Shown here: positions 9,201 to 62,394 of the stretch, one piece after another
Position numbering within the stretch: position 1 is the first letter of the stretch
Layout of the letters: every line of letters begins with the position of its first letter
Source: Hyaloscypha bicolor E
Taxonomy: Eukaryota > Ascomycota > Leotiomycetes > Helotiales > Hyaloscyphaceae
Direction of reading: 5' to 3'
DNA length: 64,000 nt
Assembly: GCF_002865645.1 (NCBI RefSeq)
Contig: NW_020194585.1
Coordinates: forward strand, 868,001-932,000
The notes under the pieces: generated by a model
Told to the model about the DNA's origin: nothing
The model's input: only the letters and a program-made list of their open reading frames with translations
The model's database searches: none
Program-made: the position numbers and the translations under genes

Positions 9201-9468
9201 AACAGCACAATCAGATCCAACATCTCCAGAATACCTTCCAGCTCTAGAGCAAATTGATACACTAGAGAACTTGCTAATCAGCTACGGGGCGAAGTCACTC
9301 CATCTTTTCCCAGTCAAAGGCTTGCCCGGATACGTCGAAGAGGACATGGAGGAATGGAGAAATTTCAATAACCCTCACACCGCATCTTCATCTTCACCGT
9401 TAACGTCTGCAAAGGCGCTTGATGCTGCTACAAGGACCGAATCGCCGCGGGTCAAGCGTACGATTTGA
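6300..9468 (+). CDS. NACHT-ankyrin NLR (STAND-type protein)
   Basis: Exons 6300-6745, 6802-6857, 6914-7670 and 7725-9468 (introns 56, 56 and 54 bp) give 1,000 residues. The N-terminus (MDPLSAAASVIAVVQIADRI) matches the Helo-like fungal N-terminal domain of STAND proteins. The hinge with DPSPNHNNACELHEDHTGQW leads into a NACHT domain with P-loop GIPGAGKT (about residue 225) and Walker B YITIDALDES (about residue 318). A helical section after NACHT (RWAFCQLDILKRL) is typical of the family. The C-terminal third holds weak ankyrin-type repeats (LIPKGADVN-like, LLDNGAQPD, LISYGAKS). Such proteins are candidates for non-self recognition and programmed cell death in filamentous fungi; that role is family knowledge, not shown here. 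The first ATG was chosen because it starts the conserved N-terminal domain. Confidence 0.88.
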
Positions 9469-39229: not shown

Positions 39230-40038
39230 TTCCATAGAACAACGGGGTAACAAAACCGGTTGGAAGGGACTCGAAGCTGTTGTCATATCGCAATTAATTT
39301 CAGCACTTGTATTTCGTCACATTCCACCTAGTGGTTGAATCGTGTATATACTTCACGAGTAGCACAATGGAACGATCCAGCAAAGGAGCCGGAGTAGGGT
39401 CCGTGAATCTGGGGAGACGGCCTTCAGTACACTTGTTAGCAGTGGTTCTACAGAGACAGCCTTACAGATCTGGGAAGCACTCTTCAGGACAAACGCGCAC
39501 CGCGTGTTGTCCTTCCTCAAGTATTGCTTGGCACGGAGCTTTGCAATATTTGACGACCTGGCAATGTTTGCCATGCCAATTCCCGTTTGTCTGGGGCCAA
39601 CGCAGTCTTTCCACCTCGAGGGAAACCCTGCAGCTGACCATCAAAGGCCAGACTGGATTCGTTTGCCCTCTTCTCGCCGTCTGTCTTGTGCCTTCTACCA
39701 GTGATCGCTTGTATCCTCCGTGCGTAATCTTTATGTTCTGCAATGTTGTATCCAAACAGGGCTGAGTGCAACTCGAGGCTTTGCCGTTGCAATATGACTG
39801 CTCGTGGAGGCGCTTTGTTTGCAAGGCTACAAAGGAGCATCTGCCGCGAACTCGTGTTGAAATCCGTCTCGATCCGATTGTGTGGGACGAAGCTTGTCTC
39901 TCCTTGCATATATCTTCTGAGACATCTTGCAGGCTTAGGTCTGGGACTTTTCGCGGTTTCGACGGGGTTGATCGAAAGCAAGCTACTTTTCTGGGGACAA
40001 CCCGCATACGTTGTCAAGCTCTCGCAACACTTGTCACT
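39230..40038 (-). pseudogene. Possible degenerate gene, minus strand
   Basis: Between the two transposons, minus-strand frames at 40017-39517 and 39574-39353 have protein-like segments (SSRQMLLCSLANKAPPRAV, then RCAFVLKSASQICKAVSVE) that sit in different frames. This looks like one decayed gene with frameshifts. No family was assigned. Confidence 0.35.
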
Positions 40039-40211
40039 TACAGTTATATGCGAAAACTCCCTGTTTTAGCGAATTTTAGCCGCATCATGCACTTTTGGTG
40101 CGCACCCCACCAAAAATTAATGATAATTGACAAAACTCACCCAACAATCGCACTACCACCTCCAGCACCATCCCAATTAGGCAATTTCGACTTTATTCGC
40201 AAGCTCCTACC

Positions 40212-42576: not shown

Positions 42577-43578
42577 TTATACTAATTCTATAGGGAAATT
42601 CCGATATCCTGAATTATAGAAATGCCCCCTAGCCTTCCTAGCTGCCTCCGGCCCCCGTCCAAGCCTCCGAATAGTATTAATCAGATAATTTCCAAAGTCT
42701 GGATACTCCCCATAGACTTTCCTATAGTTCTTCCGCATATTAGACTTAATATCGTGAAAGCTCTCCTTGATTAGGTTCAAAATTGGGTAATAAGGAGGCA
42801 ACTAGCATATCCAAATACCCCGTACCCGGCACATATCAAGTATCCTCTGACTCCGGTATATACCACAGTTATCCATTATAATAATCGAATTTTTGCCCGG
42901 CCATGGATTATACTGCGAGAGCACCCTATTTTCCATCTAATCTTCAAAAATCTCGGCTATAATATTGCCTTAATAAACCAAAGGATCAAGGTACCCATTA
43001 ATCATATATGCTGGTAAAAGGGACTACTTAGGAGATCGCTTCAAGAGTATCTTTATCTCCGCAGGTAAGCCCTGAGGTACCCATCCATATTTCCTATGCC
43101 CCGTATGCTCATTAAAAGCTAATTCGTCCACGGTAACGATCTGATCTGCTCTCCAAAATCGAGAATCGTCATACCACTACTCAAGAAGCTCCTGGTTTTG
43201 CTCCGCCGCCACCGCCTTGATTTTCTTATGTATAATCTCTAATCTCTTCAAAAGACGCGAGATCGTCGTTTGGTGAGGTTTAATGCCGAATTCCTCATTA
43301 AGAAAGTCGATAATTTCCTCCTGGTAAACGTTGACATATCTCAGAACATGCTTCATTACCGCTTCTTCTATTTCTGGTATAATTATCGATCGACGGCCTG
43401 GTTTTTTCCGGGGATCCTAGCCAAGAGCTTTCCGAACCCGTATCTAATACCTCCGATATCGTATGGTTTCGTAAGTAGTATTGAATCGGGTTGCGATCTC
43501 GTGCAAATCGGGGTGATAAGGTTGTGCGACGATAGCGTCGATGGCCGCGATTTCGCGCGGGCTTAGGTGAGGAGCCAT
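42577..43578 (-). pseudogene. Tc1/IS630-type DDE transposase with seven in-frame TAA/TAG codons
   Basis: One frame of 333 codons from ATG 43578. The N-terminal helix-turn-helix region (MAPHLSPREIAAIDAIV, then YETIRYRRY) precedes the catalytic domain. Catalytic blocks are VDELAFNEHTGHRKYGW (first D), IIIMDNCGIY (second D) and LPPYYPILNLIKESF (third acidic residue). Seven stops occur, all TAG or TAA; several fall where glutamine would be expected, for example LLE-stop-WYDD. Trp codons are intact. The element is non-autonomous in this state. Confidence 0.85.
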
Positions 43579-43770
43579 AATCTGCTCTTATCATTAGCAA
43601 GAGCTACTTTAGGGGAGTAAATTGATCCACTTCTCATCTAATTCGGACGTGGTTTGGTGAAGCAATTGGTGGTTGAAGATAATTTAGGTAACTTTTGGTG
43701 CACCCATTTTTAAGTGTACCGCTTTTCGTCAAAAACTCGCTAAAACAGGGAGTTTTCGCATATAACTGTA

Positions 43771-44028
43771 AGCGAAAACGATCGAGCCAATCAGCGCGTC
43801 TTCTATGCACCCGAGATCCATCGTCTGAGCGCGTGCTCCCAGTGGCCCCGGCGCGCTGCGCTGCAAGATCAGGGTTGTACAGTAGTGTCCCGTCTCAACA
43901 ATCCCTCTTTGCCTTTTCGGCACACACCGCCAGGCTCAATCCTTTAAAGAATTGTTAATTTGTCAATTCGATCTTATCAGGAAGTTTCCCCGAGTTTGTA
44001 GGGGTTGATCCATTGAATTCCAGGCGCA
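43771..44028. other. Flank between the DNA transposon and microprotein gene A
   Basis: 258 bp holding the presumed promoter and 5' untranslated sequence of microprotein gene A. Nothing else is recognised. Confidence 0.35.
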
Positions 44029-44307
44029 ATGGTATGATTTGACTACCCTCCGCCCCCCCCTATCAAAACCAGAACGTTGAGCAATTGACGAGTGCAATTG
44101 CAGGGCCCGAAGCCGAAAAAGAAGAAGGTGGTCGTGTGGGTTTGGGTATGCGTAGGTCGCTGGCCTGATCAAGACGAAGCAGCAGCTCACGAAACGCTTC
44201 TTTAGTGCCATTGCAACGCTTCAGGAATGACATTGCTAGTGGAGTACTGCCCTGCGTGCCAAACCCCCAGATGTGCTGCGTGCGACGTACACAAGCAGAC
44301 ACGATGA
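44029..44307 (+). CDS. Cysteine-rich microprotein, family copy A
   Basis: Exons 44029-44031 (ATG only), 44104-44151 and 44206-44307 with introns of 72 and 54 bp give 50 residues. Exon 2 encodes GPKPKKKKVVVWVWVC: a basic run followed by a V/W-rich stretch. Exon 3 encodes CHCNASGMTLLVEYCPACQ and then TPRCAACDVHKQTR with a TGA stop. The seven cysteines (CCxC, CPxC, CxxC) could bind zinc; this is inferred from spacing only. Three more genes with the same exon plan and the same conserved blocks lie in this window. Both introns are GT-AG and in phase 0. No known family name is claimed. Confidence 0.78.
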
Positions 44308-45632
44308 CCTGATACTCATGCCTCTACCTTCGAGCTCAACCATGACAGAGAGAGAGGCCTGCGTCAAAATTCCTTTCCATCAACGGGCTCGGCTATCTTT
44401 CACAACAAATTCGCCAATTAATAAGGAAAGACGGCACATTTGTCGTATCAGGATGGAGAGGGAGGGATAGAAGGGGCGGGCGAGATGGAGATGGATTCCG
44501 GGAGAGCCGCCAGGTGGCAGAGGGCAAGAGAGGAGAGAAAAATTACGGCGGGAATTGGAAAACAAAAGCCTGAAAAGATATACCCCATAGACAATAGACG
44601 GAAATGGCTTCTCAATAATTCTCCAACTGACTCCGCCCTTCGGAGATAACAATATTTGTGCCCTCGACATTGTCGTGAGGGGCGGCGAAGCCGCGGGTAA
44701 GGCCTTGAAAGTTGGCCATATAACTCGTTGGTAGACAGGGGAGTTTGTCTTTTAGACAAGACCGATGAAAGAAATGACAGGCAAAATGCTCAGAACCGGT
44801 CTAACAGAATGGATAGAGGAACACGGCGGCAAATAGGAGACTGGATGGTCATGGACAACTGTCCACATTTTCTGCCATGACCCACCAAATAAGAGATTCT
44901 CTTCGCTGTTCCTTTTGAACAAGCTCGCTCACACACGCTCCTTTCCTACACACAATCCAGCAAACAGGAGCAGCCAGCCACTTTCTCCAGCCTTATACGA
45001 AATGACACTTTCCGTCCTTTTTCCCACACTGGATACGCACTCACGTAACGTACTTACAATAGAGTTGCTCATAGCATGTTGTGCATAATCGCGTGGGAGA
45101 AAGCTGTCTTTGGTCGTCCCGAGAGCTGGAATATTGAGGGGTCGATTGGAGTGCGGGTTTGTCCATGTTTCTGTGGGGATGTTGCGATTGTGATGGGAGT
45201 TGGAGATATGTCGAATCCGAGAGCCGAATACCTACCCATTGTTAATGTCCATATCACGTGATCTGCGTCGCTACAGCGCCATGCGCACTTTCGTGTTCTA
45301 ATAGCCAGTTCGTCCTCCTTTGCTCGCCGCTTCGCTCACAGTCAGGGAAAGCAAGTGTCCCACGAGAGCAAGTATCCCACGAAAGTAAGTATATTCCACC
45401 CTACCCGTGCAGCTGCGGCAGGGTGCGCTTTGGGTCCGTGCAAGTTTAAGCGAGGTCTATGCAGCGAATGATACAGTCTAATTCTCGATCTGAGACTTCT
45501 GATTCGCTCTAATTTGTGGTACAATTGATCATGGAATGTGCGCACCTGGCCGCAGCTGAACAGATAACAAGGGCTACTTTCCAATCGCAAAAACGCTCCA
45601 AAGGTAGGAACAACTCCACCCTTCTTACGGTA
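44308..45632. other. Intergenic region
   Basis: About 1.3 kb with no supported gene. At 45306-45365 a stretch (gttcgtcctcctttgctcg ... gggaaagcaagtgtccc) recurs in diverged form at 56184-56236, so it belongs to a dispersed repeat. Confidence 0.4.
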
Positions 45633-46016
45633 CCCGTTCGTACCTTCCACAAGTTACCACTGGCGGGTTCATGAAAGCGACTGGGCCAAATCACGTGCAC
45701 ACTATTTCAAGGATTCACAGCAAAATGCCCAATCTCTGAACCGCTCAAAACCATATTTGACTAATAATACCACAATTTCAATACTATTATTATATTCGTA
45801 CTTTCTAGAGTATTCTTTATAAACTGTAAACCTTTTATAATTTCTTGAGCACTTTGAAAAAATCTCAAAATATTTTGTATTCTAACAGGGGTAAAAGTGG
45901 GCGGCGGTTGAGTGTTTGGCCAGTGAATACTAGATAAGGTTAAAATAGTACGCACGTGATTAGGCCCAGTCGCTTTCACGAACCACCAGTGATGACTTGT
46001 GGAAGGTATGAACGGG
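45633..46016. mobile_element. 384-bp MITE-like element with long inverted repeats
   Basis: Left end CCCGTTCGTACCTTCCAC and right end GTGGAAGGTATGAACGGG are inverted copies. The inverted repeat extends about 65 bp with a few mismatches (to AAATCACGTGC on the left and GCACGTGATT on the right). The element is flanked by TA on both sides (45631-45632 and 46017-46018). The core is AT-rich and non-coding. Confidence 0.75.
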
Positions 46017-46018
46017 TA

Positions 46019-46631
46019 TATGACCTGGTAAAGTTTTGTCTATAAATCTATATATAGATAAGTATTTGCATAAAGTTAGATTAAAATTTAAAGTAGTTGT
46101 GTGAATTTAATTATTGATTTAAGCCCGATTTGCCATAAATTCCAGTGTCTTTTAGTGGCGTTTCTTACGATCTTTTCCTTCGTCTGGTGAGACATTGCAG
46201 CCGCTGGCGGCCAATCAGCTAAAGGAGACTCAGCCTGGGCTTTTGCTCGTGGAACTGGTGGACGAACCGATCGATCATCAGAAGTATTTCCCCACCATTC
46301 CAAACAGTTTCTCTTTCTTCTCTACGACACCGGAGAAACTTCCTTTTCGAGTCCATACAAAGGCGAGCGGCATTGAAACTCGTCCAATATCCTAAGCGAG
46401 AACGGGCGCAATTTTGACCTTCGCAAATACAGAAATTCTCACAATTCCCCCTTATCTTTAATCATCGCAAAAAGTTTGCAGAAGATAGATCTGCTTCTTT
46501 TCTATTACGCAAAGGACTTTTAAAAAGTTTCGTGCTTTCCATTGAGGTTTGGTATAATTTCCAAAACATAGCCATTTTGGTATTCCGGCTGCTGGCAGCT
46601 GGACGGTTTTCAACGCCGTGCCCTTCGTACC
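46019..46631. other. Upstream region of microprotein gene B
   Basis: 613 bp with no supported coding feature apart from the presumed promoter and 5' untranslated sequence of microprotein gene B. Confidence 0.35.
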
Positions 46632-46893
46632 ATGGTGGGTAAATCCACACAATTTCAGCCAGCAATAGGTAATTAACGGTCCAACAGGCACCGAAACCGA
46701 AGAAAAAGAAGGTGGCGGTTTGGTTCTGGGTGTGTGTAAGTCCTGACACTGCCTTCCACACCATACATATACGTCCGCTAATCTTCCCAAGTGTTACTGC
46801 AATGCGAGTGGAATGACTCTCTGCATCGAGATTTGCCCTTCTTGCTTGACTCCTCGATGCGCCGCTTGCGACGTTTTCAAGCAAACGAGATGA
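46632..46893 (+). CDS. Cysteine-rich microprotein, family copy B
   Basis: Exons 46632-46634 (ATG only), 46688-46735 and 46792-46893 with introns of 53 and 56 bp give 50 residues. Exon 2 encodes APKPKKKKVAVWFWVC; exon 3 encodes CYCNASGMTLCIEICPSCL and then TPRCAACDVFKQTR. It has an extra cysteine (TLCIE) compared with copy A. Gene plan, intron phases and the stop codon position are identical to copies A and D. Confidence 0.78.
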
Positions 46894-47580
46894 CTGGAAA
46901 GAACACACCGACCTTTCTGTTTCCCAAACAGATATCACGACTCGATCGAGCCTCTCCTCTGCGACTTTCCGTCCCATACACTTACGTCGACCTCCTCGAT
47001 AACACATCCCTTGACCATTCAGATGCGCACATACGCTCCTCTATTCAATCTCCTTCCCAACCCCACAACTCCGTACGAATAACAAGTTGGACTGTTGGTC
47101 AATAGATAAGGTGGAAATTCGCAATTGTTAAAAATAGAGGAGTTCAAAAGCGTCATGGACTGTATTTCTTAAAGGGTGGTGGGTATCTAGTTATACATTC
47201 TTGTTTTGTGTTGCGCTCATTTAGAAGAAGAACCTTGCCCGACGAGCCTCGATTCGCTAGAAGATAACCACATGGTACCCAAGAAAAGCTTCCGCAAATT
47301 TCTCGTAGATTGAAAACGAAATGCAACGGATAATTCTCGACATAAGAATCCCAAGCTTAATGGACAACTTTCCATGAGATATCAGCTAATAGTGCTGACT
47401 GTCAATCGCTTTTTTTCACGCTGAAGAGACACATGCTAATGTGATCTCCAATCCATGCCCCTCGCAGAACCAGGCCGTGAACTAAAGGTGCATTGCATAG
47501 GACACAAAAAGCATAAGAAGGAAACTTCCCAATACCGAACCGACTTCAGACGAAACAAAATCTCGAAGGAAATGACTGGT
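46894..47580. other. Intergenic region
   Basis: 687 bp between microprotein gene B and the 3' end of the arginyl-tRNA synthetase-like gene. No gene is supported. Confidence 0.35.
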
Positions 47581-49558
47581 TCAATTGATAATCGGAGTGA
47601 TCCCAAGCAGCTTCATCCCGTTTTCCAGTGTCTGTCTGGCACTATCATACAGCACAGATCGAGCGGCATACTTCGATCCTACACTGGATCCCTCTCCCCC
47701 AGACTCGTCTTCTTCGGCCTCCTCGAGACAGGAAGTGATCTCCTCCACCATCTGGAAAAGGTATGTAAGAATCGTTGCGGGATCCATGGTATGAAAGGCG
47801 GACTTGATAATTCCTGGGTACCGAGCCATCAATCGGAGCAGATCACACCACGGAGGTGCCCACAATGATGAGTAATCGATGTGGGGAATTTCTTCCAGCT
47901 TCAAGTTCACTCCAATACCAGCAAGCGCTGAGCACAGCCTTGCATGGCAGCGCAGCAAGTCCGGCCCCGTCTCGCCTTCCAATGCCAAGAGGCTGAGATC
48001 GGTATTGTTACCATGGCCTTTTTTGGAACGTAGCTCTTGCACGACCAAGGAGCTCACTCCCATTGCTTTTGCAACGGCGTCGCCGCCTTCGATGTGATAC
48101 TCATCGGGGCCAGTGCCCACAACTTCTCGCATGAAGTCCTCACGCTGGTCGAGAATATCACCCAGGAGTTGGGCATCACCTAGGTGGGATGATCGTCGGC
48201 TAGCCTTTGCAAAAGTGATGTGTTCTAACTTGTCCGCGATATCAGGATGGCCCATGAGCTCAACGGCTCTGAAAACTTGTCGAAAGTGCACATCCTGTTC
48301 ACAGACTACGTAGATCATCTTGTCAAATGAGTGTCGTTTGAGTCGATCAAATACCGTAGCAATGTCTCTTAGCAAATAAGTCGTAGAACCATTCCGACCT
48401 CGAACGATACCCTTGTCCAGTTTTGTGCCGTATTTCTCGTAATCGATAACCCAAGCCCCATCTTGCTCCTCATAAATGCCTCTGGATTCCAATATGGCCG
48501 CGACTTCGACCACAGCTTCCGGGTTCAGACTCACTTCGGATTCGCCCGAGTATTCGTCAAACTTGAGGTTCAGTCGCCCGTACGTCTCTACATAATATTC
48601 GACGGTGATGTCTCGAAGTTTCTTCCACAAGGCAATTGCACCCGGCTCACCGTCCTCCATCCCTTTGAAAGTGGCATCTCTTTCTGCGAATAATCCCTCG
48701 AGCTCAAGAATCGTTGCATCTTGCCCAGTATCTCGCGCGTTCTTTCTAGCTTCTAGTTCAGGCCGTAGCTCCTCTTCCATCTTGTTGTACAAGTCATGGA
48801 TATATCTGAAGAGATTTGTCTGGTCGTCGACCTTATGTGCGGAGTCGTATTTCTGCCAGCCCAAACCGAGCAGGCCAAGATGTTTGCCCCAATCTCCCAA
48901 GAAGTTTATCCTGACCACATCCCAACCCACTGCCTCGTACATATTTGCCACGAAAGCGCCAAGTATTGTGCTTCGTAGGTGACCAGCCGTGAAATCTTGT
49001 GCTATGTTTGGAGAGGAAAACTCGACGACAACCTTCTTGCGTCTAGACTCGGGATCATCTCGCAAGCTCCGAGGTTTTTCAATGCCGTATGTAGGTTTGC
49101 GGTCGCTGATATAGGGAAGGAAGAGTCGCGGGATGATTTTGGGGGAGAGAAAGAATCGAATATGGATGCCATCCTGGAAGGGAACTCCGAAGAGGGCATG
49201 AGGTTGGATCTGGACGGCATACACAAGTTAGATTTGGGCGACCATCCGAAGAGGCTGGAGAAGTTTGACAGACCTGTATGAGAAGTTCGCCAGCTAACTC
49301 TTTTGGGCGGCCACCAGGTAGTTTCAGGCGAGGCAAGACGATGTCTAAGTCACCGTCCTGAATTGTGCTTGGAGGCTGGATAGCCTTGTAAACAGATTCT
49401 GGATCAGCTTCCACAAGCCGCTGAAAATGTTCCGCAAGATAAGAGTGACACAGATCCATGGGGTCGGTGAGGACGTCAGCTGATGCAAAGAAAGGCACAG
49501 GTCCGAGCCCAAGCTCCGCCACAAAGGCCTGGAGGCTGGGAAGTGAGGTGGTGGCCAT
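47581..49558 (-). CDS. Divergent arginyl-tRNA synthetase-like protein
   Basis: Exons on the minus strand 49558-49274 and 49209-47581 (64-bp intron, phase 0) give 637 residues. The core matches class Ia ArgRS: VVVEFSSPNIAQDFTAGHLR (HIGH region, about residue 168), INFLGDWGKHLGLLGLG, DITVEYYVETYGRL, IVRGRNGSTTYLLRDIATV, and the C-terminal anticodon-binding helices ending MKLLGITPIIN. The first His of the usual HAGH is Thr (TAGH). In the region of the KMSKS-like loop (about residue 430) the sequence is KASRRSSHLGDAQLLGDIL instead of a STRKGT-type loop. Active aminoacylation is therefore doubtful. The protein may be a diverged paralog, a self-resistance or moonlighting copy, or a pseudoenzyme; a housekeeping role is less likely. 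The open frame itself is intact. Confidence 0.82.
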
Positions 49559-50038
49559 TTAGGCTCGTATCTGAGGTTGCTTAAAAAGAAAATTGGCGCG
49601 AGATTCTGCTTGCGGTGTGCCTCGTCGTGCCTCGTGTGCTCAAGGCTCATGAAGAGGGTGATGGTCGAGGTAGCATCCAACGCTGATGTGCTGGCGGGCA
49701 CAGGGCTTGGACGACCACATCGTGGCCTTCGAAGTTAGGGCAGAAGCAGCTTCCAGTCATATTCCAGTCATTGTCAGAAGGTTGATACCGTGATCATGTT
49801 GATAGGTTGGTGAAATGTGACCATCCATGGTTAGCTGCAGTTGGTTGCAAAGTTACGCTTGGGCGGCTAAGCCTTTCTGGGCGACATTTACCAACGCTAA
49901 GCATTAAGTGCTCTGGATAATATGGCGTAGAAAGGGTATCATTATCATAAGTGGAAATAAACAAAGATATAGCCCAGAGCAAGAGCAAGCTCCTTTCGAA
50001 GACACCATATAAATGCAAAATGGAATTCCCCTGCAAAA
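49559..50038. other. Intergenic region upstream of the ArgRS-like gene
   Basis: 480 bp between two minus-strand genes. It presumably holds the promoter of the ArgRS-like gene. Nothing further is recognised. Confidence 0.35.
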
Positions 50039-52635
50039 TCAGCTGTCCAGCCCCTGCTCAAGATCCTTAGGGACATCAGCCTTTCGACATATCCGACAAA
50101 GATATCGGAGAATCATCTGGGCCCATGAGCGCCACCTAAATGACGCTGCAATGCTCATAAGTACAAGAACTGCTAAAATTAAAAAGCAGAGTATGAATCG
50201 TTCAAAATTCGGAGTAAAAGGCAAAACCCCCTCTGTTGTACTGAACATGTTTGCAGCAAGGGTCAGCGGGAGATATGCCTGGTTAATGAGGAGAGTTAGA
50301 ACTATAAATATACACCTTGTCACTAAAAACTTACAATGGTAATGAAAGTAAGTATTTGAATATGGTGGGCAGACTTCTGCTGGAATATCTGCGCTTCGTG
50401 ATTCCCATGGTCATAAATGGCGTTAAGCTGCTTGGATCAACATCTACATATCAAAGCGGGTAGAGCGATAAGGTTGCAAATACAAAAGATAGAGTACTTA
50501 CGCCTTGGGGGCTGTCCTGGCAGAGCCCCTTTTCCAGCTTTACGAGCTTTCTGAGAATATCCTTCAAGTCCAGAAACACATTATCGACCTCATTGATCGA
50601 GGATTTCAAAAGCGAAGAGGTGGTTGGAAGGTCGTCGTCGAACAGAAAGTATGCGATATCCTTTCTCTGGAATCTGTCCCAGGCTTCGACAGTGTCCCCG
50701 AGGCTCCTTATTAATTTTCTCAGCAACGTTACCATTTCTCCGTTCCATGCACCGATTTCCCTCACTCCCCTCGTAGTAGAATAGTCGATATTCAAAGGCA
50801 AGTTCTGATTGTTTCTGGAGCTATGAAGTCAGCCAATCGTTGCCACGCTGCGAGTAGGATCGATAGATGGACATGGTTGAGTAACTATTGTTTGCACACC
50901 AGTCACGAAGTCATTATCCCAACCAACACTTACTGGTCAACATCCACTTCCACCTGACCAAGTATTGCCCTCCACTCCCGTCCTACTTGCTGTATCCGAA
51001 TTTCAAAAACCTTGAAGTAATACTCCCTTGGCGTCCAAATAAGATTGTGAGCAGTAAGCTGGCCAGCTGCAAGAGGGTCTGGTCGACCAGTGAGTGCATT
51101 CGTTGCCTGGTAGGCTTGCACACTATCACTCGATCCATAGTAAGTGTCGAAGGAGCCGTAGGCTGTCCAGACTTGGTGATCAATCCCGGTTACAGTGACT
51201 GATACTTGTGATTCATACAGACATAAAGGTCGTAGCGAACTATTAGACCCGGACAGGAAAGGCAGACGCCACGAACGTCTCAAAGGCTTGTGGTCGGATC
51301 CTTTCCGATGGTCCTGGAATAACTCCTTGCTCTCGGTCAACACGTAGAAAGGGATGTGCAGTTCGAAAGTAAAGACCTTGAATCCTCGAGACTATATCGA
51401 ACATGGTGTGATTAGTTTTTGGCAGATGTGTAGAATGCTTGGCTCCAAGTCTTACAGGAATCGTCACTCCAATAGCCGCCTTTGATGTCAAGTACTTATA
51501 AAAGAAATTCTTCAGAGTCAATGCATGGTTTCGCGGAGCCGTTGCTAGAACTACTTCCATGGTCGACGGAATCAAATCAGGAAGAAACCTGTCCGAGTTC
51601 GACCTATTAGAAAGGACATATTACAAGGCGTTGTGATACAACTTACAAAACCCTCCTCTCCGCATCGCATGCTGCATCTTGAGCGCTTTGAGCATAATTT
51701 TCTTGGGTCGAACTAATTTTGAAGCGCTATTCAATACGTCAGTACAGCTTCGAAATGTGAATAAATGTAAGATATCGGTTACCGGTTTGCTCAATTCTGC
51801 TCGTAGTTCCTTTATGGTCAAAGTCCAACGGCGTGGCCTGAAGTCTTTTTGTTTTAAAGGCATCCGACCGCCAGATTTCCTGTCATCAAGTAATGCAACG
51901 GGTTTCTCACATCCCTTATACATCGCTTGCTCAACAAAACCCGCAACCACATCAACTTGATCTCGATATGGCAAATTCTCTTCGTCTCCAGTCATTCCTT
52001 CCATAAAGACTCTGGCTGTCCCACGCCTGCCGCAAGATTCTTCATTTTCGTCACGCTCCCACCTTCCAGGCCCACTTTCTTCAAGTTGTTTGCCATCCTT
52101 CTCATCCCCGTTGTTGAAGCTATCAAAGTAGTATGGATAGGCTGGCAACCAATCAGGGTAGATTCGGTCCTCGGCCTCGGTTCGGCTCTTCTCTTGCTGA
52201 CCATCAATCATGTTCTTCTCCGCATCTTGTTCAATCTAAGCGAACTCAACTTAGCCCCACTTGATAATAACAGTGGAAAATCACGGAATTCTTGATGTTG
52301 TTGGAAGGTGGGGGGCCTTTCAAAGGTAGTTGGGTTCCCCAAAGCGATCAGATAAGGGGACAAAGTCGAGATATACATACTGAAGCACCACCATCCTCGT
52401 CGTCGTCGTCCTCATCATCGTCGTCCTCATCTTCGTCGTCCTCATCCTCTTCGTTTTCCTTCCACTCCTCTCCACTAGCATCTCTAAAAGCATCTCTAAA
52501 AGCATCTCGCAACCATTTAATGTATGGTTGGTTCTCGGCCTCACGATTGAAATATTGACGCCTCTCAAAGAACCTCAAGGGCCAGGAGCAGCGCAATGAT
52601 CTGCGAGGAACTTCGTCGCTTGTCACCGGTGTCAT
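50039..52635 (-). pseudogene. Fungal CorA-like membrane protein gene with a one-base frameshift
   Basis: Six exons on the minus strand: 52635-52381, 52235-51652, 51603-50934, 50820-50502, 50427-50335 and 50278-50039, coding for about 719 residues if the frameshift is ignored. Exon 1 ends in a long Asp/Glu run. Exon 3 contains IPSTMEVVLATAPRNHALTLK, FDIVSRIQGLYFRTAHPFL, TGIDHQVWTAYGSFDTYYG and PREYYFKVFEIRI. Exons 5-6 give the C-terminal membrane part (ILTFITIAYLPLTLAANMFS, then FILCFLILAVLVLMSIAA), the CorA-like helix pair. Within exon 3 the frame shifts by one base at the CGGG run (51248-51252): AFPVR and SNSSLRPLCLYES are in different frames. All other phases fit. The exon 2-3 junction uses an unusual GTTTTG donor. 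It may be a recent pseudogene or an assembly error. Confidence 0.75.
52382..52455 (-). repeat. Trinucleotide-rich acidic run
   Basis: A (tcg/tcc/tca)n-like tract encodes the Asp/Glu run at the end of exon 1 of the CorA-like gene. Such tracts often vary in length between strains. Confidence 0.6.
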
Positions 52636-54252
52636 TTCAACACGTGACTGCAGCCAGTCATCTTCAATCTATAGATGGCAGTGTTTATGAAATAAGCGAG
52701 GTGGGGCAAGCAATAAATATCACAAGGCATTCAGCAGGAAGTGGGAAATATGCCTAGTACTTATCAAAGCAAGGTAATGTGGGAACAACTCGGGCATGTC
52801 AGATGGTTGCTCCGAAAGAGGCAGCCCCGGTAAATAATATCCAAAGTCAAAGAGCGCCTTGGTTGCCTCGTCAATCAGAGTGCTGTAACATAGATCATAC
52901 GGAACTGTGCAGTCCAGTAGCTACCTGCCATACCAAGTCAAGCCCGATGAAGGAAGCCCAACGCGCCCCCCTCTGTCACCGCCCGCTGTGGGTGAAAGGG
53001 ATAAACGACTTGACGCTCATAGATAGTGCAGGGACACAATCCAATACTGGGACTTTATTATATTTGTTCGGCGGCAGAGAAACCCGGGTGTTTTTTGCGC
53101 CGAAGAGCTATTGGGTGGACATGGTTATTCCCCCTTCGCCGGCAAATCGTAACTTGCAACTTATGAGGCTGTGCGGTGAGTCGATATGCATCTATTTCAC
53201 AGCCTCAATCGGGATAATTCCACATGGCATATGGAGGGGTGCTCGAATGCTTTGCTGGATGCCAAAGAGCAACTCTCCTCGACTTTTGACAAGGCTTCAG
53301 CTCACACCTGCCTTGACTGCAGGCAGCGTAACCGAAGCGGAACTGCCCGAAAGTTACTTGAGATCCACTGCCATGCTGAGCCGCGTCAAACCACAGTCTT
53401 TTTCAAGTAGGAAGAGCTATCAGACGGGGCTGAGCGAAGCTTTGACCTCCTTCACGAATGCACAGATGACGTGGATGCACGACATCCGCAATGTTCTCCA
53501 GATTTAAGGCTGACTAGCTCAAACTTCGGAGTAAAGCCTTACATACTGACACCCAATGATAGTGCGGCATCCTGTCTCGTGTGCCCAACGCGATAAGTCG
53601 GGCGCCCATACGTGGCAACCCGAAGCGATATCAGCCAACCCTTAATGATTAAAGCAGTAACTATATCCAAGCGAGTCAGATCTCGGGATTAGGTGAATCT
53701 ACTTTTAAAACCTTATATATTTGCAACGTAGGGCCAGTCAAAACGTTCCGGGCAGCTTTGAAGGGTATAAAGAGCTCGCGAGCCTTCCAATATCTCCATC
53801 CACTGGCAGTCAGAATAGTCTGAACTCCCAAATACCGCCACTGTGTTTACCCGGAGACCCAAGTCGCATTGGATTGGAAAGCACACAGAGACAGAGATGG
53901 CTCTCAGAGCCCAACGGGCTTCCCACAAGGCTCTTTTAAATGGCGGTCAATAACTCGCTGCTACCAATTGCACGAAACTTTGCATGTGCACGAAGCCATT
54001 TTGAGCACCACGATAATTCTAACGGAAGAATGGCTCATAGCCCATGGAATGGATTCCACGACGGCCCATCATACATGCACGAGACGGAACGAAGAGCAAC
54101 TTTGCTGATTTGAAATGAGTGTGGCTTAGACCAAGAAATTTTGGCCTTGCTCAAGGTGGTGCATAATTTTGTACAGTGAAAGACCACCCCATTGGCTAAG
54201 AGTTCGACATCAAACTGCGTGTCAAGAACGCTAACAGAGCCACAATTGCAAC
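52636..54252. other. Gene-poor region
   Basis: A 242-codon open frame at 52779-53507 on the plus strand has no domain, signal peptide or splice support and a composition unlike the real genes here; it was not called. No other feature is supported in this 1.6-kb stretch. Confidence 0.35.
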
Positions 54253-54725
54253 CTAAACCCGGACAGCGCCCAGTGTCGTTCCATTGGTAACACTCGCGCT
54301 GACACCACTCGCGCAGCTCATCTGGCTACACTGAGCCTCGAGACTTGGCATCGATACAGCTCCTGCTTTTGTCTGATTTGCTGCTGCGGTCCACAGTACT
54401 CCGATCGCCGGCAGAACTTTACAACATCGATTGAAATTGACTGCGGCAGTTGTGTCCTGGGTTGTCATGTCTCCACTCTGAACACTCTGCAAGTTGCTGA
54501 CGATGCTTGGAAAGTTGCCCATCAAGACGTGCCAGCGTTGGCACCTGTTTTAGGGAGCGCAGCCAACGTCATTAAAGTTACTAGCTGCAGAGGCTTGTCT
54601 TTCGCGAAGACAATAGCAGCGGCCAGCTTTGTTTTGGTTTCAGGGTTGTTCTGCGTCCCCTGATTAGTTGCTGCAAATAGAGTGCCTGCGAAGAGTATGC
54701 AAATGATGGCCGAGAACTGCAACAT
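54253..54725 (-). CDS. Possible small secreted protein (splicing uncertain)
   Basis: A signal peptide (MLQFSAIICILFAGTLFA) starts at 54725, followed by about 45 residues (ATNQGTQNNPETKTK...). A second open stretch to 54253 contains NFNRCCKVLPAIGVL and LEAQCSQMSCASG, with four cysteines. The two stretches are in different frames. An intron from GTGCCA near 54540 to an unusual GGAG acceptor would join them, but this is weak; a frameshifted pseudogene is equally likely. No family was recognised. Confidence 0.35.
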
Positions 54726-56571
54726 TGGCTGAGGAGAGTGAATGGTGATATGACTTAAGGACTGATCATAGGAGAATATTCTGACGCAGGCTACCAGGCT
54801 CGACACCACCCAAACAATAACAGAATGAGTAAAGAAGAAAGAGAGGCTACGGCTGAGGACCCAACCTTGCGAGAGATATTTACACCATAGATCGGCTCCA
54901 AGTCATACTTCGAGCGAGCCAAGACGCCAGAAATATCATGCCTTCTGTTTTGATCTTCCATTCATAAACCCCGCAAGATAAAGCGATCATCCGCCGCCAA
55001 GAATGGCTGGAAGGCTCCTCACTGGTGGAAGCCGTATGTTAAACAACCAAGTTGTACCTACAATACATCCTGGCTGCCGATAAGAGTTCACCAGCCCCGT
55101 ATACCAAGATCAACGGAACGCCTTATGTGTACAAAAGGCAAAGTCAATCAGTCCCACCTTATAGTGGTCCGGATTAGCGCAGCTGACCGTTTCGAAACAC
55201 GATGGGGTGTTTCCACTCGGAGAAAGGAACTCCCAAGCGCGGCCTTGACGCAAATCCCCCTCATTTCGAAAACTACGGCCCCACTTGGGAAATCCCTAAT
55301 ATTAGGGGATCTCGATCCTCTTCTCCACCCATGCACAGCCGCAAGACATAGCCATAAACTGGATATACACCCCCTTCAACTTTGTGGAATCACACTAACT
55401 TATTTTGGCGCAGAAAGACGCCAGCCCCCGAGTGCATAACATAATCAGTATCACAGCGTATCAATACAATCCGACATCGACTCAGCCTCTCACATCCTGA
55501 GGCGGAGCCGTCAGGGAAAGGAAAATACAGAGCTGTATATGATGACATCTCGGCTCAATGATGGGACCCCTCCGAGAGGTTGGGGATCGTTCCCCGTCTC
55601 TTTGACAGCAGAACAAAGTGACACAAACATAAATATCAGATAAACGTTGTGCTTGGACTTGCAAGAAAAAATCCGTGCATGAAATGGTCAACAATCCTCG
55701 ACAAAATTGTGCTTCCACTTGGCCAAACCATCAACTGTTTGGTGATTAATTGCTGCCTTCAATCCGTGATTGAGACTCGATCCTTTCGCCACCGCGCCTG
55801 TGTCCAATATGTTGCTGTCCTGCTCCCGTTGATGGATGAGGAAGAGGTGGCTTCTGTTGGAAAGTTTTGATTTACAGCGCCTTGCGAAAATAAATCTTAC
55901 AACAGTATGCGAAACTAGTGCGAAAATCGATTTTTAAGCGAGCAGCGGCAGAAGTGTTCATTGGCCAACCACCCAGGCCACTCAACCGCCCAAATTTTAT
56001 TTCACCACAACAGCAGCATAAAAGATAACTTTTGATTTTGAGTAGATATTTGGAGCTCGGGAGACTAATCCTACAAGTTTTGGGAATTTTCTAAGTAAAT
56101 TGCTTTAAAAGCTTCTCAAATTTTTATATTCCGACAGGGGTAAGAGTGGGCGGTGAGTGGTCGATCAATACTTCTGATAATCGGTTCGTCCTCCTTTTCT
56201 CGCTTCGCTCACAATCGGGGAAAGTAAGTGTCCCGGCTCAAATTGTGTTCCTTATCTGGTGAGGCATTCCGACGCTAGCGGCCGCATAAATGCGGATGAC
56301 CTGATTCGAGGAGACTCTGATACCGGCCAACGGCTTGCCGAATTGGTGAAGGAGATTCGGTGGTTTCATTGCTGGCTAGAGCCTGCAGTAGGCCCATAGT
56401 TCTCTGAGGGGTCAGGGATCACCTCCAGCCCATGCAAGCACGGAAGGCTGGCGCACAGAGGAATGGAAAGGTCCTCGCTACGGTAGCTAGGATGCTGACA
56501 TCAATTTCCCTTCCCCGGTTCGGCAAGGCGTCGATCGCGTGCGGGCAGGGCCGAAGAAACGGACTCGAGTA
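54726..56571. other. Gene-poor region with diverged repeat remnants
   Basis: No gene is supported. At about 55960-56165 a pair of inverted segments (ggccactcaaccgccca and gggcggtgagtggtc) enclose AT-rich DNA, and tattccgacaggggtaagag near 56127 resembles tattctaacaggggtaaaag inside the 384-bp MITE at about 45876, so this looks like a diverged relative of that element. Confidence 0.4.
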
Positions 56572-56699
56572 CTCTCCCCCCCCCCTAAATAAATGTAACA
56601 GTGGGTCCAAGTGCAGGGGTTCTTTGGTATGGCAACTGGACGCGTGCCAGGCTGGTTTTGCGGGGACCCACTGTTACATTTAATTAGGGGGGGGAAGAG
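56572..56699 (+). mobile_element. 128-bp TA-flanked MITE, copy 1
   Basis: TA at 56570-56571 and 56700-56701. Terminal inverted repeats run from a C-rich end (CTCTCCCCCC) through taaatgtaacagtgggtcc to the matching ggacccactgttacattta and a G-rich end. The core contains a gcaggggttctttggtatgg segment shared, in reverse orientation, with copy 2. Confidence 0.8.
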
Positions 56700-56701
56700 T
56701 A

Positions 56702-57483
56702 TCTTCTGGAGACTTTCCCTCAGAATCCTAAAGTCGACTGCTGCTAACTCAATCGGGCGGTGCAACACTCACTCATAACACCCACGCCCGACGCAATACC
56801 TGGAAAAGAGAGGAGAATTTTAGTTAGCCAGCGCAGCGGTCTAGAGAGTGCAGGTGGCCTCCGGAGTGAACGCTCGCGCCCAATTTTGATATTCTGTGAA
56901 GGCAGAGAGGTTTGGTGGGGCAATGTTCAATTCCTAGTGGCTGAGTGGTCCGCTGCCCGGTTGGGTTAGCAGGAGTCGAGTGAGGGAAAGTCCTTCTGGA
57001 CGTTGCCTACTGTCGCGCAGGATGTGCCTCGGAGTTTGAAGTTCGTGCTCCGGACTATTCAGGAAGTTTGAGCCGAGTCTTCGACTCAGAGATAGCCCAA
57101 CAACTCACTCGTAACGGCCGCAAATGCGAGCCTAGCAGACGAGGCAAGCGCACCTTCCTAGATATTGGAGTTGCGGGAGCAGTGAAGGAAGGGGGAGGAG
57201 GCTCTCGTGAGGACCACTTTTGGAGGTGACTCGTGCGGCTTGATCGTTTCGAGATCGGGATCGCGAAAGAGCACGCAACCTAAGTGATGTTACTGTAAAT
57301 TACGCTCCGTAGTGCTGCCCCTCCAGGGGTCAAGCTGAGATGATTGGCTGAACCTTCTTCCCTCGCTTGCTGATCTCCAGCAATTTCACGGCCAATCGTC
57401 GCCCCTGGTCTACTAAGCGAGGCCACACTTCTCCTGAAAACGGCAGATTTTAACATCCACGCATAATTGACGCATTGCTCACT
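56702..57483. other. Spacer between MITE copies
   Basis: About 780 bp without a supported gene. Confidence 0.3.
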
Positions 57484-57485
57484 TA

Positions 57486-57611
57486 CTCCCCTCCCCCAAA
57501 ATAAATGTAATAGTGGGTCCCCGCAAAACCAGCCTGGCACGGTCCAGTTGCCATACCAAAAAGCCCCTGCACTTTGACCCACTGTAACATTTAATTAGGG
57601 GGGGGGGGGAG
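57486..57611 (-). mobile_element. 126-bp TA-flanked MITE, copy 2 (inverted)
   Basis: TA at 57484-57485 and 57612-57613. The core is the reverse complement of copy 1, with CTCCCC and GGGGAG ends. The two copies lie 0.9 kb apart in opposite orientation. Confidence 0.8.
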
Positions 57612-57707
57612 TACTGTATTGATGCGTTCTCGGCGACTACCCTACCCATTCATTTTGCAAGGCAAGGTATTTGAGCACGAGCAAACAGCTCCGGGGAAGT
57701 CGCGCTA

Positions 57708-57812
57708 CTTTCCCCCCTCGATAAAACGCAGCGTTGCCAGGCTGGTACGGCCATTTTGGCGTAGATCATACCCTGGCCGCATTACGTTTTATTCAGGGGG
57801 GTAGGAGGGGAG
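57708..57812. mobile_element. 105-bp TA-flanked MITE, related type
   Basis: TA at 57706-57707 and 57813-57814. It shares the C-rich/G-rich ends but has a different subterminal repeat (gataaaacgc against gcattacgttttattc) and a short core with tgccaggctggtac, partly shared with copies 1 and 2. Confidence 0.65.
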
Positions 57813-58725
57813 TAACACCCGCCACATTTGTTTGCCGAGCCGTGTCTTCCCTTTCACAATAATACAAAACAGTACGCAGTCTACGAGGTTACTTCTACGA
57901 AGTTACTTCCCACAAAATTTCGGGATTTTGATAGCAGTTATTGCGGGAGCTGTTGCAGAAAACGTTGTTTTTCGGCCCAGGTGTCGGTGTATCTCAAGTC
58001 GTGACAGACCAGAGGTGCGTGGCACGGTAGCCAGTAAGCACTTAAAGACGTAAATACCGGGGCAATTGAATGTACGGAGTAATGAGCGCCACAGACAGGG
58101 GAGTCATGCCAATGAAGGCTCGTGCTTTTCTTTCTGGTCTGTGACCCCCTGTCTGGTCAGATCCAATTTCCCATGAGAACCTTGTAGCCCCCTGTCTGGC
58201 CAGACCCAATTCCCATGAGAACGTTGTAGCCCCACCCGGATTCCCATTCTTACCGACACAGCGTCATCTGGAACGCCCACGTCCTCGCGTGTAGCGCCCG
58301 CGAGCGTAGGCCACCTCAGATCGGACCGTCGATCTCACTCCCTGGCCCCCCACCCTCTTGATCGGTTGAGTCAGGGTCGGGTTCTGCTGCTGGCACCTCC
58401 AGCGCGGCGGCACCTTGCTCTGCCGAAGTTGACGCCGAGTCAAGGAATGTAGGAGAAGGATTCCGTTCACGAATTATTGACCGGGAAAGCGGGAAAGGAT
58501 ACTACGTCCTCCTGCTCACCGTCCTTGAAAATTATTTAAGACTGCTCTTTGTCTTGACAGGAAGAGGTAACTCTGCACTCCTCTCCTTCTCTTCTCTTCT
58601 GTTCTCTTTCTTCTCTTTCTTTTCTGCGGAATTGGCTGAGTCGTTCTTTCATTCGTTCTGTCAGCCAATTAAAAACGTGAATGTTTCCAAGACCCTGGTT
58701 TCCCCGCCAGACGGCTGCTTATCGG
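57813..58725. other. Region upstream of microprotein gene C with a tandem repeat
   Basis: Two direct copies of a 42-44-bp unit (ccccctgtctgg(t/c)cag ... cccatgagaac(c/g)ttgtag) lie at about 58145-58232. A TATA-like attatttaag near 58532 precedes the pyrimidine-rich leader of microprotein gene C. Confidence 0.5.
58145..58232 (+). repeat. Two-copy direct tandem repeat, unit about 43 bp
   Basis: The two units start ccccctgtctgg and each end in ttgtag; they differ at a handful of positions. An inverted match to the unit start (agacaggggagtc) occurs near 58095. Confidence 0.7.
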
Positions 58726-59151
58726 ATGGTAAGATTCTTCCATGGCCCGGCCCGATAGTCATCGAAAGTATCCGAGTGCTAATTGGTGTGCAGCCTTCAT
58801 CCAAGAAGCTCAAAAAGAAGAAGGTGGTAGTGTGGATATGGATTTGCGTATGTTCTGATCCCACGGCAGAGCTTAAAAGCAGGACGAGTAAAAAGCTGAT
58901 TGCCTACCAAGTGCTACTGCAATGCCAGCGGCATGAGTTTATTAGCCGATCCCTGTCCTTCTTGTGGGACACCGCGATGCGCAGCGTGCGATGGTAAGCC
59001 TTGATTTTATAATGCTTTCCTGTTCCCCCCCAAAAATGCCTCTGGGAGCCTTAGGTTTGCTTTCGGGCAAACAGTTCCAACCATCTGAGCTCCACGGCAA
59101 TTAATTATTTCAGGACTAATCCTCTGTGTAGTCCACAAGCAGGCCAAATGA
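58726..59151 (+). CDS. Cysteine-rich microprotein, family copy C (extra intron)
   Basis: Exons 58726-58728 (ATG only), 58794-58847, 58912-58993 and 59132-59151 with introns of 65, 64 and 138 bp give 52 residues. Exon 2 encodes PSSKKLKKKKVVVWIWIC, exon 3 CYCNASGMSLLADPCPSCG and then TPRCAACD, exon 4 VHKQAK and stop. The third intron lies inside the Val codon of ACDV, where copies A, B and D have none. If it were retained the protein would end ACDGKP, losing the basic tail. It is the most divergent member, yet every cysteine of copy A is kept. Confidence 0.72.
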
Positions 59152-62107
59152 TTGCTGCTAGACAGTCACACCGTTTTGCAATATGCAATGGCATCAGAAT
59201 CCTTCGAAAAACTTTGTCTGACGGGATTCTCTTTCCACACTCATTCACGTTGCCTCGCTCTCTAACCAAGTTTCGATCAAACTTCGAGCACGAACGAGAG
59301 TAATGTCGGCTCATAAATCACTGCTTGTCGGTGGTTCGAGTATCCAGTCCTTCACATTTCCTTCAAGATCAACAATCCCGGGCCATTCAGCAGATATCGA
59401 GCAACCCTGCTACCGGCTACTCCATAAGCATACGTTCAGGAAACAGGAGTCATGATTCATGTTAAATTCCACTCTCAGACGCAAACACTGGCTTTCGGGC
59501 ACCGCTGTTTACGACAACGATTATTCTAGCTGGAGAAGTGATCTCGATTGGATAGATAGGATGAAAATGACTTTCGCGACAGGTTGCAGTCGAATTTCTT
59601 TCCGTCCTCGGCCGTGTTTGCAGAAACGTAACATCGGCCCAAGTACGGAGATCAACGACTATTCTTTCTGGACATTGCGTGGGCAGAGTTCGTGAAGGAT
59701 GATTTTGCCTGCCCTTGCTTGGTTGGTATGAAGGAGGGAGTTTCGCAGGCGCGAACGAGGGGAGATTGGGTTTCAAGCGAGACCATATGTTATTCATTTA
59801 TTGTACGTGTAGAGTTTCATTTTCAGCAGTTCTGGCGGTGTACGATAAGTGTTAAAGTGTATAATTAGTGTACGAGTATTTGTGTTTCGGCTGCTTTGGT
59901 TGATTGACAAGCTTCGGGTGATGTCACGAAGGCGCACAGTCTATTTTTAGTGGGTTGAGGAACACTAAAATCTCATACTTTTAAACATTGCGCATCGCAA
60001 CGCGACCATGTCTAAATACTTTAAACTAAGCTCTAGGCGAAAGAGAAGAAACTCAAGTATCTTTCACCCGTGTTTTAGTGATTCTAAAAAATTTGGGAGT
60101 TTTATTGCGATTTTTCAAAGACGAGGGGACGATTTTTAAGAACCTCGCTTAGCGAAATGGAGATTTTCAAAACTGTGCACCTTGTATCTGATCTTCTGTT
60201 TCCAAATTTTGGAAGGCGGGGTTGGGACGAATGATTCGTTCATTAAGTGTTTACAGTGGGTTGGCCAGCGAACAATTCCGTATCACGTGATATCAGTCTT
60301 TGAAATCATCAGGTTCGCGCTCAAGTTTCAAAGTATCTCGAGCTTCCATCACAACAGCAGCCCCTCGCAGAACCACGCACCACCCTCTGTTCGACGACTT
60401 GTCTCTCATTACTACACCCAAACTCCAAAGGGGACGATTTTACACGGTCATGCAACATGCCGCGCCCGTCGAGCCTCTCCTATGCTTCGAGCTAAAAGCA
60501 TGATCCATATCTGTACTGGACCCTCTTCACCTTCTTCTCTCTGCTCGCACAATCATTAGCAGCTTCCAGCGCCTCATGCTACCGACGAATCTTCGAAACT
60601 AATACTAGAAGCTTCGACATCTCTACAACGACTGCCAACAGTCCCCACACATAATGGTTGGCTCTAGGAGAAGAGAACATAATGGGCCAACATTGTGGCT
60701 ACTCAATGGATACATGCCACACATTAATGGCACATACAAGGCAGCTCTGCGGAGGCTCAGAAACGGCCCGTTAGAGCAATTTGGAGACTTGGAAAGGAAG
60801 TTCTTCAAGTTAGGACACTACGAGCTTTGCACCACAACTCACCATGGCCATCCCTCCAACAAAAACACGACACTTCTCTGGTCAAATCATCGCATAACAA
60901 AGGTTGGCTTCAGGAGGAGAGGATTTGGACCAATGCTGCCGCTCTATAAGGATACGCACTCCACAATCACGAAATTTGTGCAAGGTATACCTCCGCAGAT
61001 GCTCAGAAGACTCAACCAAAGGAAATGGAAGACTTGGGGAGGAAGTCCATCAAGGTCATGGACAACAAGCTACACCCAGCATTTGTTTATGCCCATTTCT
61101 CAATCCGGACACTACACTTCTCACGTCGAAGTTATCGGAGGGCCTCTGGCCTGCCATGGTACCACCCTTCTCTCATCAAGGCTACCCCACGGCTTCTGAT
61201 CAGCCTCGAGTACAAGGCAAGGAGAATCGAATTTTAAGGCACAAGTGTGCACGACACAAGCGCTCCTACAACCTGGCACCTCACGCTCGATGATCAACCC
61301 ACCAACTGGCCCCAGGCCTTCACAGGCAACAAAACAAACATTCCAATCCCTCCCCCCGAAAAAGGGTTTACAAATGCAGCTTGAGTGTATATGTAATGAC
61401 AGTTTCTACACTCATCCGCAAAAAGGGGTACAAACAGCGCTTTCGCTTCGTCTTTCTTCCTCTCTTCCCTCCATGTCGGTTGCTTTTATCCTATCTCTTC
61501 AGCTTCTCAAGGCAATTAGCTCTGAGATGTACCTGATTCGTTCTCTTTCACGTGCATCCGGCATTATCTAACGTTGCAAGAATTCACCGAAGTTTTGTTT
61601 CATTGAAGCAAAGATCCATTCCCGCCTTTCTATGAGTACGTGATCCCTTTCGACTCCTCTAATTCACATAAGTGCAAACCCCTGCTCCGTAACTGCGCTG
61701 CATATAACCAAGTCCTCCGCTTTCCTCATTCAGGTAATTGTACAGTATGGGTACATGTGAACCATAGGTAAGGTTATCCTCGAGCGCCCCTGCAATTCAA
61801 CAAAACAGGAGGATTGAGAGTATGCCTCATGTGCGACGCGTCATTTCGAAGATCGAACGAGAAGGATATCTCTTCGGAGAGATCGAACTGGTAGTAGGAC
61901 GATTGAAAGTGGCTGTTGTGCGCCAGTCGTGGTCGATGTGGATTGGGAAAACTTGCCGCTTGATAGCAAGAACCGGCCTCGCTCCCGCTCGTTGGTTGGG
62001 GTGTGCGCGAGGAAGAATAAATAAGTGCATAGGTTAGGAAGTCCATGGGATCTCTGCTGAGTCTTTTGTAGTCGTGAAACTCGAAGGTATATATGGGTAG
62101 GTAACGG
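59152..62107. other. Long gene-free stretch with a diverged tandem duplication
   Basis: About 3 kb without a supported gene. Around 60654-61200 two consecutive segments of roughly 250 bp are related (both start ggttggct(t/c)-like and share gctcagaa, gacttgg and ggacactac landmarks in order), suggesting an old tandem duplication. The 181-codon frame across it lacks any domain. Confidence 0.35.
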
Positions 62108-62394
62108 TCATCGCGTTTGCTTGTATACATCGCACGCAGGACACCTCGGGGTCCGGCAGGCAGGGCAGTACTCCACTAGCAACATCATTCCAGCAGCATT
62201 GCAGTGACACTGAGAAGCGTTTGTTAGTCATTGCCTCGTCTTCATCTGCGTTCCGAGAGTTCAAGTGGATGACAACTCACGCAAACCCAGACCCACACCA
62301 CAACCTTCTTCTTCTTCGGTTTAGGCGCCTATTACATGCCATTAGTCAATCGCTCCCGCTTGTTCCGTTTTTGCTTTTGGAACCACGTTACCAT
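62108..62394 (-). CDS. Cysteine-rich microprotein, family copy D
   Basis: Exons on the minus strand 62394-62392 (ATG only), 62328-62281 and 62209-62108 with introns of 63 and 71 bp give 50 residues. Exon 2 encodes APKPKKKKVVVWVWVC; exon 3 encodes CHCNAAGMMLLVEYCPACR and then TPRCPACDVYKQTR. The first intron has a clear TTGACTAAT branch region, the second ATGACTAAC. It is closest to copy A (LLVEYCPAC shared) although it lies 18 kb away on the opposite strand. Confidence 0.78.

Follow-up and report, generated by a model that had tools for sequence, protein, structure and literature searches.

Four short cysteine-rich genes lie in a 64,000-nucleotide stretch of the genome of Hyaloscypha bicolor E (contig NW_020194585.1, positions 868,001 to 932,000; the whole stretch is called the window here), and they raise the question of whether such small reading frames are conserved genes and, if so, what kind of protein they encode. 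The analysis indicates that the family is real, conserved and unnamed, yet that it belongs, as one branch, to a wider class of zinc-ribbon mini-proteins and is not a new kind of system. The preferred explanation, to which a probability of roughly 0.4 is given, is that the window genes are old paralogs in a family of intracellular, free-standing mini zinc ribbons that would bind nucleic acid or its machinery. The genes, of 50, 50, 52 and 50 codons, were read and translated as follows:

44029-44307, plus strand: copy 1, 50 amino acids; exons 44029-44031, 44104-44151 and 44206-44307; GT-AG introns of 72 and 54 bases.
46632-46893, plus strand: copy 2, 50 amino acids; exons 46632-46634, 46688-46735 and 46792-46893; GT-AG introns of 53 and 56 bases.
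58726-59151, plus strand: copy 3, 52 amino acids; exons 58726-58728, 58794-58847, 58912-58993 and 59132-59151; introns of 65, 64 and 138 bases.
58994-59131, plus strand: third intron of copy 3, 138 bases, GT-AG, phase 1, parting GAT G from TC.
62108-62394, minus strand: copy 4, 50 amino acids; exons 62394-62392, 62328-62281 and 62209-62108; GT-AG introns of 63 and 71 bases.

This local cluster spans about 18 kb, and reading, translation and tblastn all place the copies at the coordinates and on the strands given by the original prediction, which had been made from the DNA letters alone. With the copy 1 protein as query against the window, copy 4 was found with an expectation value (E) of 9e-23, copy 2 with 4e-19 and copy 3 with 1.4e-14. 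The next-best place, 23132-23214, was rejected as a fifth copy (E 0.023 with copy 1 and 0.004 with copy 2), being GT-rich and devoid of the cysteine array. The copy 1 protein reads MGPKPKKKKVVVWVWVC before the exon boundary and CHCNASGMTLLVEYCPACQTPRCAACDVHKQTR after it, and copies 2-4 are close variants of it; the proteins have isoelectric points of 9.06-9.30 and masses of about 5.6-5.7 kDa. Frames, splice sites and cysteines are kept in all four copies, as had been claimed: introns 1 and 2 occupy the same two positions everywhere, in phase 0, with GT...AG in 8/8 cases and lengths of 53-72 bases, and the cysteines number 7, 8, 7 and 7 in copies 1-4. The predicted array, beginning CxCNAxGM, is also present, but its start had been set one cysteine too late, because the putative metal-site unit is W-x-C-C-x-C and is split by an intron.

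The first coding exon, as modelled in all four copies, is the ATG alone, with the GT donor immediately after it. In copies 1, 2 and 4 this one-codon exon is the sole start in frame, since no other in-frame ATG lies between it and the nearest upstream in-frame stop, which in copy 4 directly precedes the start ATG; in copy 3 a start longer by 15 residues is possible, because there is an in-frame ATG 15 codons upstream. The rough chance of finding ATG followed directly by GTR in the right zone of all four copies is 8e-7. A branch-site-like motif, [CT]T[AG]A[CTG], stands 13-20 bases from the acceptor in 8/9 introns, the exception being intron 2 of copy 1, which has it at -40 only. If the third intron of copy 3 is left unspliced, the frame ends in CAACDGKP and a stop and the tail VHKQAK is lost; the conserved VHKQ tail is restored only by removing this intron. 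The same intron was considered as a mobile introner and rejected, as it matches only itself in the genome.

Selection between the copies had been proposed, with dN/dS as the means of checking it, and the proposal withstood the comparison. Over 45 shared codons, the six pairs of window copies have pS of 0.58-1.05 and pN of 0.05-0.18 (proportions of synonymous and nonsynonymous differences), giving pN/pS of 0.09-0.22; purifying selection therefore acts on the four proteins. Across the six pairs, p values from Fisher tests (rounded counts) run from 1e-8 to 6e-18. Synonymous sites are saturated, dS being beyond correction in 5/6 pairs and 1.09 between copies 1 and 4. In this last pair, in which copy 4 is the copy nearest to copy 1 (72.8% identity over 250 alignment columns), most differences fall at third positions (3, 2 and 17 of 45 at codon positions 1, 2 and 3). 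Comparison of the window copies with a paralog on contig C3 gave pN/pS of 0.36-0.44. Introns and 300-base flanks are 35-57% identical, with higher values for the introns of copies 1 and 4 (59% and 69%), and single shuffles used as a control gave 33-64%, one per pair and for intron 1 and the upstream flank only.

The four copies had been taken for a family of their own, a view that does not survive a search of the genome (82.0 Mb, 76 contigs): they are one clade among at least 25 genomic loci, with relatives in other fungi. Five single-protein queries led to 29 separate places, outside which lies C3:336973 (E 0.09, with a stop). The exon-3 cysteine pattern fits 25 of the 29 and not the other four, so that this tblastn-type check on wider relatives added 21 further loci with the same cysteine plan to the four in the window. 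A GT-AG intron exactly between the adjacent Cys codons C17 and C18 can be placed in 17/25 loci, all four window copies included, whereas seven read through the site without an intron and one is undecided; the donor search demanded W-x-C before the site, so that 17 is the number of loci compatible with such a model, and the donor of locus L022 (GTTCGT) is poor. Members share the plan W-x-CC-x-C-x(11-13)-C-x2-C-x3-RC-x2-C, and in most of them the second knuckle has P behind its first Cys. Among 16 chosen aligned members, for which the first residues of the C70:2776546 and C28 paralogs were guessed (a database protein, P0005, shows a longer first exon for the former), the invariant columns are W15, C17, C18, C20, C32, P33, C35, R39, C40 and C43. 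Among 22 database members, numbered after protein P0002 of Hyaloscypha variabilis, C40, C42, C54, C57, R61, C62 and C65 are invariant and W37, C39 and P55 reach 90%. The window clade is a short form, marked by the signatures CNASGM (or CNAAGM) and TPRCxACDVxKQ. C70 has three of the places close together (2770720-2780174), and C21 likewise has three (1399947-1402776), of which one is a distant form; thus, local clustering recurs in the family.

Some loci carry the module in another setting. At C1:927601 (L023, 1453-2859), a 469-amino-acid open frame has the W-x-CC-x-C module first and then retropepsin-like sequence (Asp_protease_2, E 3.9e-9, with a second D-S-G motif upstream seen by eye); to judge from the sequence, it may be a fusion in which an aspartyl protease domain has been joined to the mini zinc ribbon. 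Another locus, C75:231980, has the exon-3 module followed in frame by what by eye resembles an F-box, LPLPKLTELTDDIHQRIGAFLSFDDLVQLSLSCK. More distant relatives, at C21:1402639 and C75:635480, read W-F-C-H-x-C-G-D-G-P...C...H-W-R-C-x2-C, and these would link the family to a broader His-containing group.

Evidence of splicing comes from paralogs. Protein P0005 corresponds to the exons of the C70:2776546 paralog at 155/156 residues with both introns absent, the sole mismatch being its first Met, which is GTG in the genome. Its source is labelled 'lgn' and comprises three contigs of up to 3,903 bases. P0005 is read here as complementary DNA (cDNA), because such a protein is what prokaryote-style gene calling on a contig free of introns would yield; on this reading of the 'lgn' source, it is probable cDNA evidence of splicing. 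Another example is P0006, an H. bicolor E gene model that equals the exons of C51:2233201 in 89/89 residues and has the same C-C join. P0025 starts within exon 3 of the C70 paralog, as if from unspliced DNA or RNA. No comparable evidence was found for the four window genes themselves, so splicing of the window genes is supported only indirectly, by the intron-free match of a paralog and by a gene model.

Relatives have also been found in other fungi. The protein database searches gave 1, 3 and 23 matches (E limits of 0.01, 1 and 0.01), and those with a named host come from H. variabilis, H. hepaticicola, Cadophora, Leptodontidium, Parastagonospora, Alternaria, Plenodomus and Paraphaeosphaeria, which we take to span Helotiales and Pleosporales, i.e., at least two fungal orders. 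The uncharacterised proteins K444DRAFT_617802 and K444DRAFT_610242 (H. bicolor E), V8E51_005563 (H. variabilis) and AA0116_g8042 (Alternaria tenuissima) have the same W-x-CC-x-C...C-P-x-C...RCxxC module and, by their sequences, are true relatives of the window genes; many of the uncharacterised fungal relatives have longer heads or tails than the short window clade. A tree was made from 24/25 loci (L045 omitted) and 18/25 of the database proteins P0002-P0026, with the root set on the C21:1399947 member; several of its supports are low because it rests on only about 50-60 columns. In this tree, P0002 falls into one clade with the window copies (0.85), which is joined by P0003 of Cadophora (0.92) and by the intronless C3 paralog (0.875). 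Within it, copy 3 groups with P0002 (0.85); therefore, part of the window duplication probably predates the split of H. bicolor and H. variabilis. The 21 residues that P0002 has ahead of the shared Met are taken from a gene model and bear no clear likeness, by eye, to the window upstream frames.

The fold was approached through an AlphaFold2 model of P0002, in which the core residues 31-70 have block means of 93-95 and strands run over 33-38 and 66-71. The two Cys knuckles of the sequence and these beta strands together agree with a zinc ribbon in the broad sense, and the predicted fold would be a compact zinc-ribbon or NZF-like knuckle pair with a third CxxC. Fold searches with the model gave no significant match, the weak ones including Trabid NZF1, RanBP2-type fingers and rubrerythrins. 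In line with the original prediction, no match to a described family emerged: the members searched have no significant match in Pfam, NCBIfam or PDB, and a description of a W-x-CC-x-C mini zinc-ribbon family was not found in the open-licence part of the literature. Rubrerythrin/rubredoxin-like and DUF1610 zinc ribbons show a weak profile likeness over the knuckles, which is not significant (6ydh, E 0.053; rubrerythrin, E 0.46; for the C3 paralog, RUBY_RBDX, E 0.056, and Zn_ribbon_NOB1, E 0.045). Fungal Zn2Cys6 clusters also have six conserved cysteines and a basic stretch nearby, but their consensus is CX2CX6CX5-12CX2CX6-8C and the window spacing is CX2CX11CX2CX4CX2C; membership in PF00172 was rejected on this spacing and on the lack of any PF00172 row at E 10 (three proteins) or E 1 (22 members).

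The mini zinc ribbon proposed here would work as follows. A disordered lysine-rich head is succeeded by a beta strand, VVVWVWV, and the two knuckles C-C-x-C and C-P-x-C most likely coordinate a single zinc much as in NZF/rubredoxin. Then come a third pair, R-C-x2-C, and, at the C-terminus, a short strand, DVxKQTR, probably paired with the first strand. The zinc-stapled module would thus expose an aromatic strand and a basic head, and with these it may bind nucleic acid, or a protein of the nucleic-acid machinery, in the nucleus or cytosol. A more speculative extension is that such 50-residue ribbons, present in at least two orders of filamentous ascomycetes, duplicated repeatedly and held under purifying selection, serve as small regulators in the nucleus or at the ribosome, or compete with longer relatives. 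It includes the idea that splicing itself completes the metal site, because the boundary of the core exon falls between adjacent cysteines of the zinc knuckle.

The alternative that survives best, though it is doubtful, is a protein-protein adaptor like the NZF/RanBP2 fingers (for ubiquitin or a small GTPase), or a microprotein competing with larger family members. The NZF consensus is W-x-C-x2-4-C-x3-N-x6-C-x2-C, with x10 between the knuckles, and the window plan W-x-C-x2-C-x11-C-x2-C is near to it; Trabid NZF1 superposes on the model with a root-mean-square deviation of 0.6 over 26 columns (TM-score by target 0.86), and the 469-residue frame at C1:927601 shows that a longer bearer of the module exists. 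However, the Foldseek E value of this match is 1.2, the knuckles are x11 and not x10 apart, the window copies have Gly where NZF fingers have an Asn, four residues past the second Cys of the knuckle, and the window proteins are free-standing at about 50 residues, with an extra third CxxC and a C-terminal strand. In addition, there was no PF00641 row for copy 1, P0002 or the C3 paralog (E 10) or for 22 members (E 1), in searches whose filters remove the majority of rows above about 0.1. Membership in the NZF/RanBP2 family was rejected on these spacing and Pfam results. An unlikely alternative, metal buffering or redox work, would make of these a small thiol-rich protein storing Zn or Cu or cycling disulphides, as 7-8 Cys within 50-52 residues might suggest; against it, the spacing is fixed and ribbon-like, W, P and R are conserved and the predicted core is confident. 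Still less probable is a secreted symbiosis effector of this root-associated fungus. The genes are small, Cys-rich and clustered in a repeat-rich region, as effector genes might be, but the N-terminus reads directly as a lysine run and then a short stretch, VVVWVWVCC, modelled as a strand, selection is purifying and not diversifying, and CxxC knuckles suit a reducing compartment.

The surroundings of the genes had been described as rich in repeats, and this is so, with repeats around the genes and none carrying them. Parts of 43400-43778, 45300-46630 and 59926-60188 occur at many places in the genome (at least 51, 30, 41, 42 and 39 matching pieces in the respective searches, the query's own place counted), and two repeats end close to genes:

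43400-43778, no strand assigned: terminal part of a multi-copy, transposon-like repeat that lies upstream of copy 1, with matches reaching at most 43770-43778 (query 371-379).
46356-46630, no strand assigned: high-copy repeat, about 275 bases long, whose end lies one base ahead of the copy 2 ATG (46632).

The only non-self match that extends into the copy 1 gene is copy 4. For the repeat before copy 2, 29/41 of the non-self matches listed end at 46624-46630 (query 325-331) and none goes beyond, 40/79 candidates having been scored. Since this repeat abuts the ATG, the original upstream DNA of copy 2 may have been displaced, and the repeat may now supply its upstream region. No repeat match entering any of the four coding regions was found in genome searches that jointly covered all four genes. 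A DNA transposon of 3.7 kb that stops about 250 bp short of copy 1 is suggested by a pair of matching inverted ends, one at 40031-40077 and the other at about 43732-43778, and 45631-46018 resembles a miniature inverted-repeat transposable element, with inverted 80-base ends that are 88% alike and partial genomic matches in several places. Two frames are Copia-like, one at 35750-36283 (gag_pre-integrs, E 0.00018, below its cut-off) and one at 37064-37555 (RVT_2, E 2.9e-24). Between copies 2 and 3, at 47581-49224, there is a frame for an arginyl-tRNA synthetase (E 1.5e-60). As a check for decay of the repeat-induced point mutation type, TpA/ApT was highest at 34-44 kb (0.86-1.12), with 0.95 at 56-58 kb and 0.67-0.79 in the bins with the four copies. 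At 6300-9468, frames resemble by eye a fungal NACHT/ankyrin-type protein with a P-loop, GIPGAGKT. Finally, for all the repeat-rich surroundings, the repeat abutting copy 2 and the Copia-like frames, the notion of pseudogene relics or transposon-borne sequence, the latter named with the original prediction as what would undo it, is already largely refuted and scarcely credible: the four frames and splice sites are intact, pN/pS is low, and the sole non-self matches inside the genes are those of copies 1 and 4 to each other.

These results are of significance because annotation readily overlooks 50-codon genes whose first exon is a single codon. The family has no significant Pfam or NCBIfam match even though one genome has at least 25 loci of it and relatives occur in what are presumably at least two orders. 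If the module does work as a stand-alone zinc ribbon, fungal cell biology would gain a compact group of microproteins open to testing, together with an example of paralogs preserved within a repeat-rich region.

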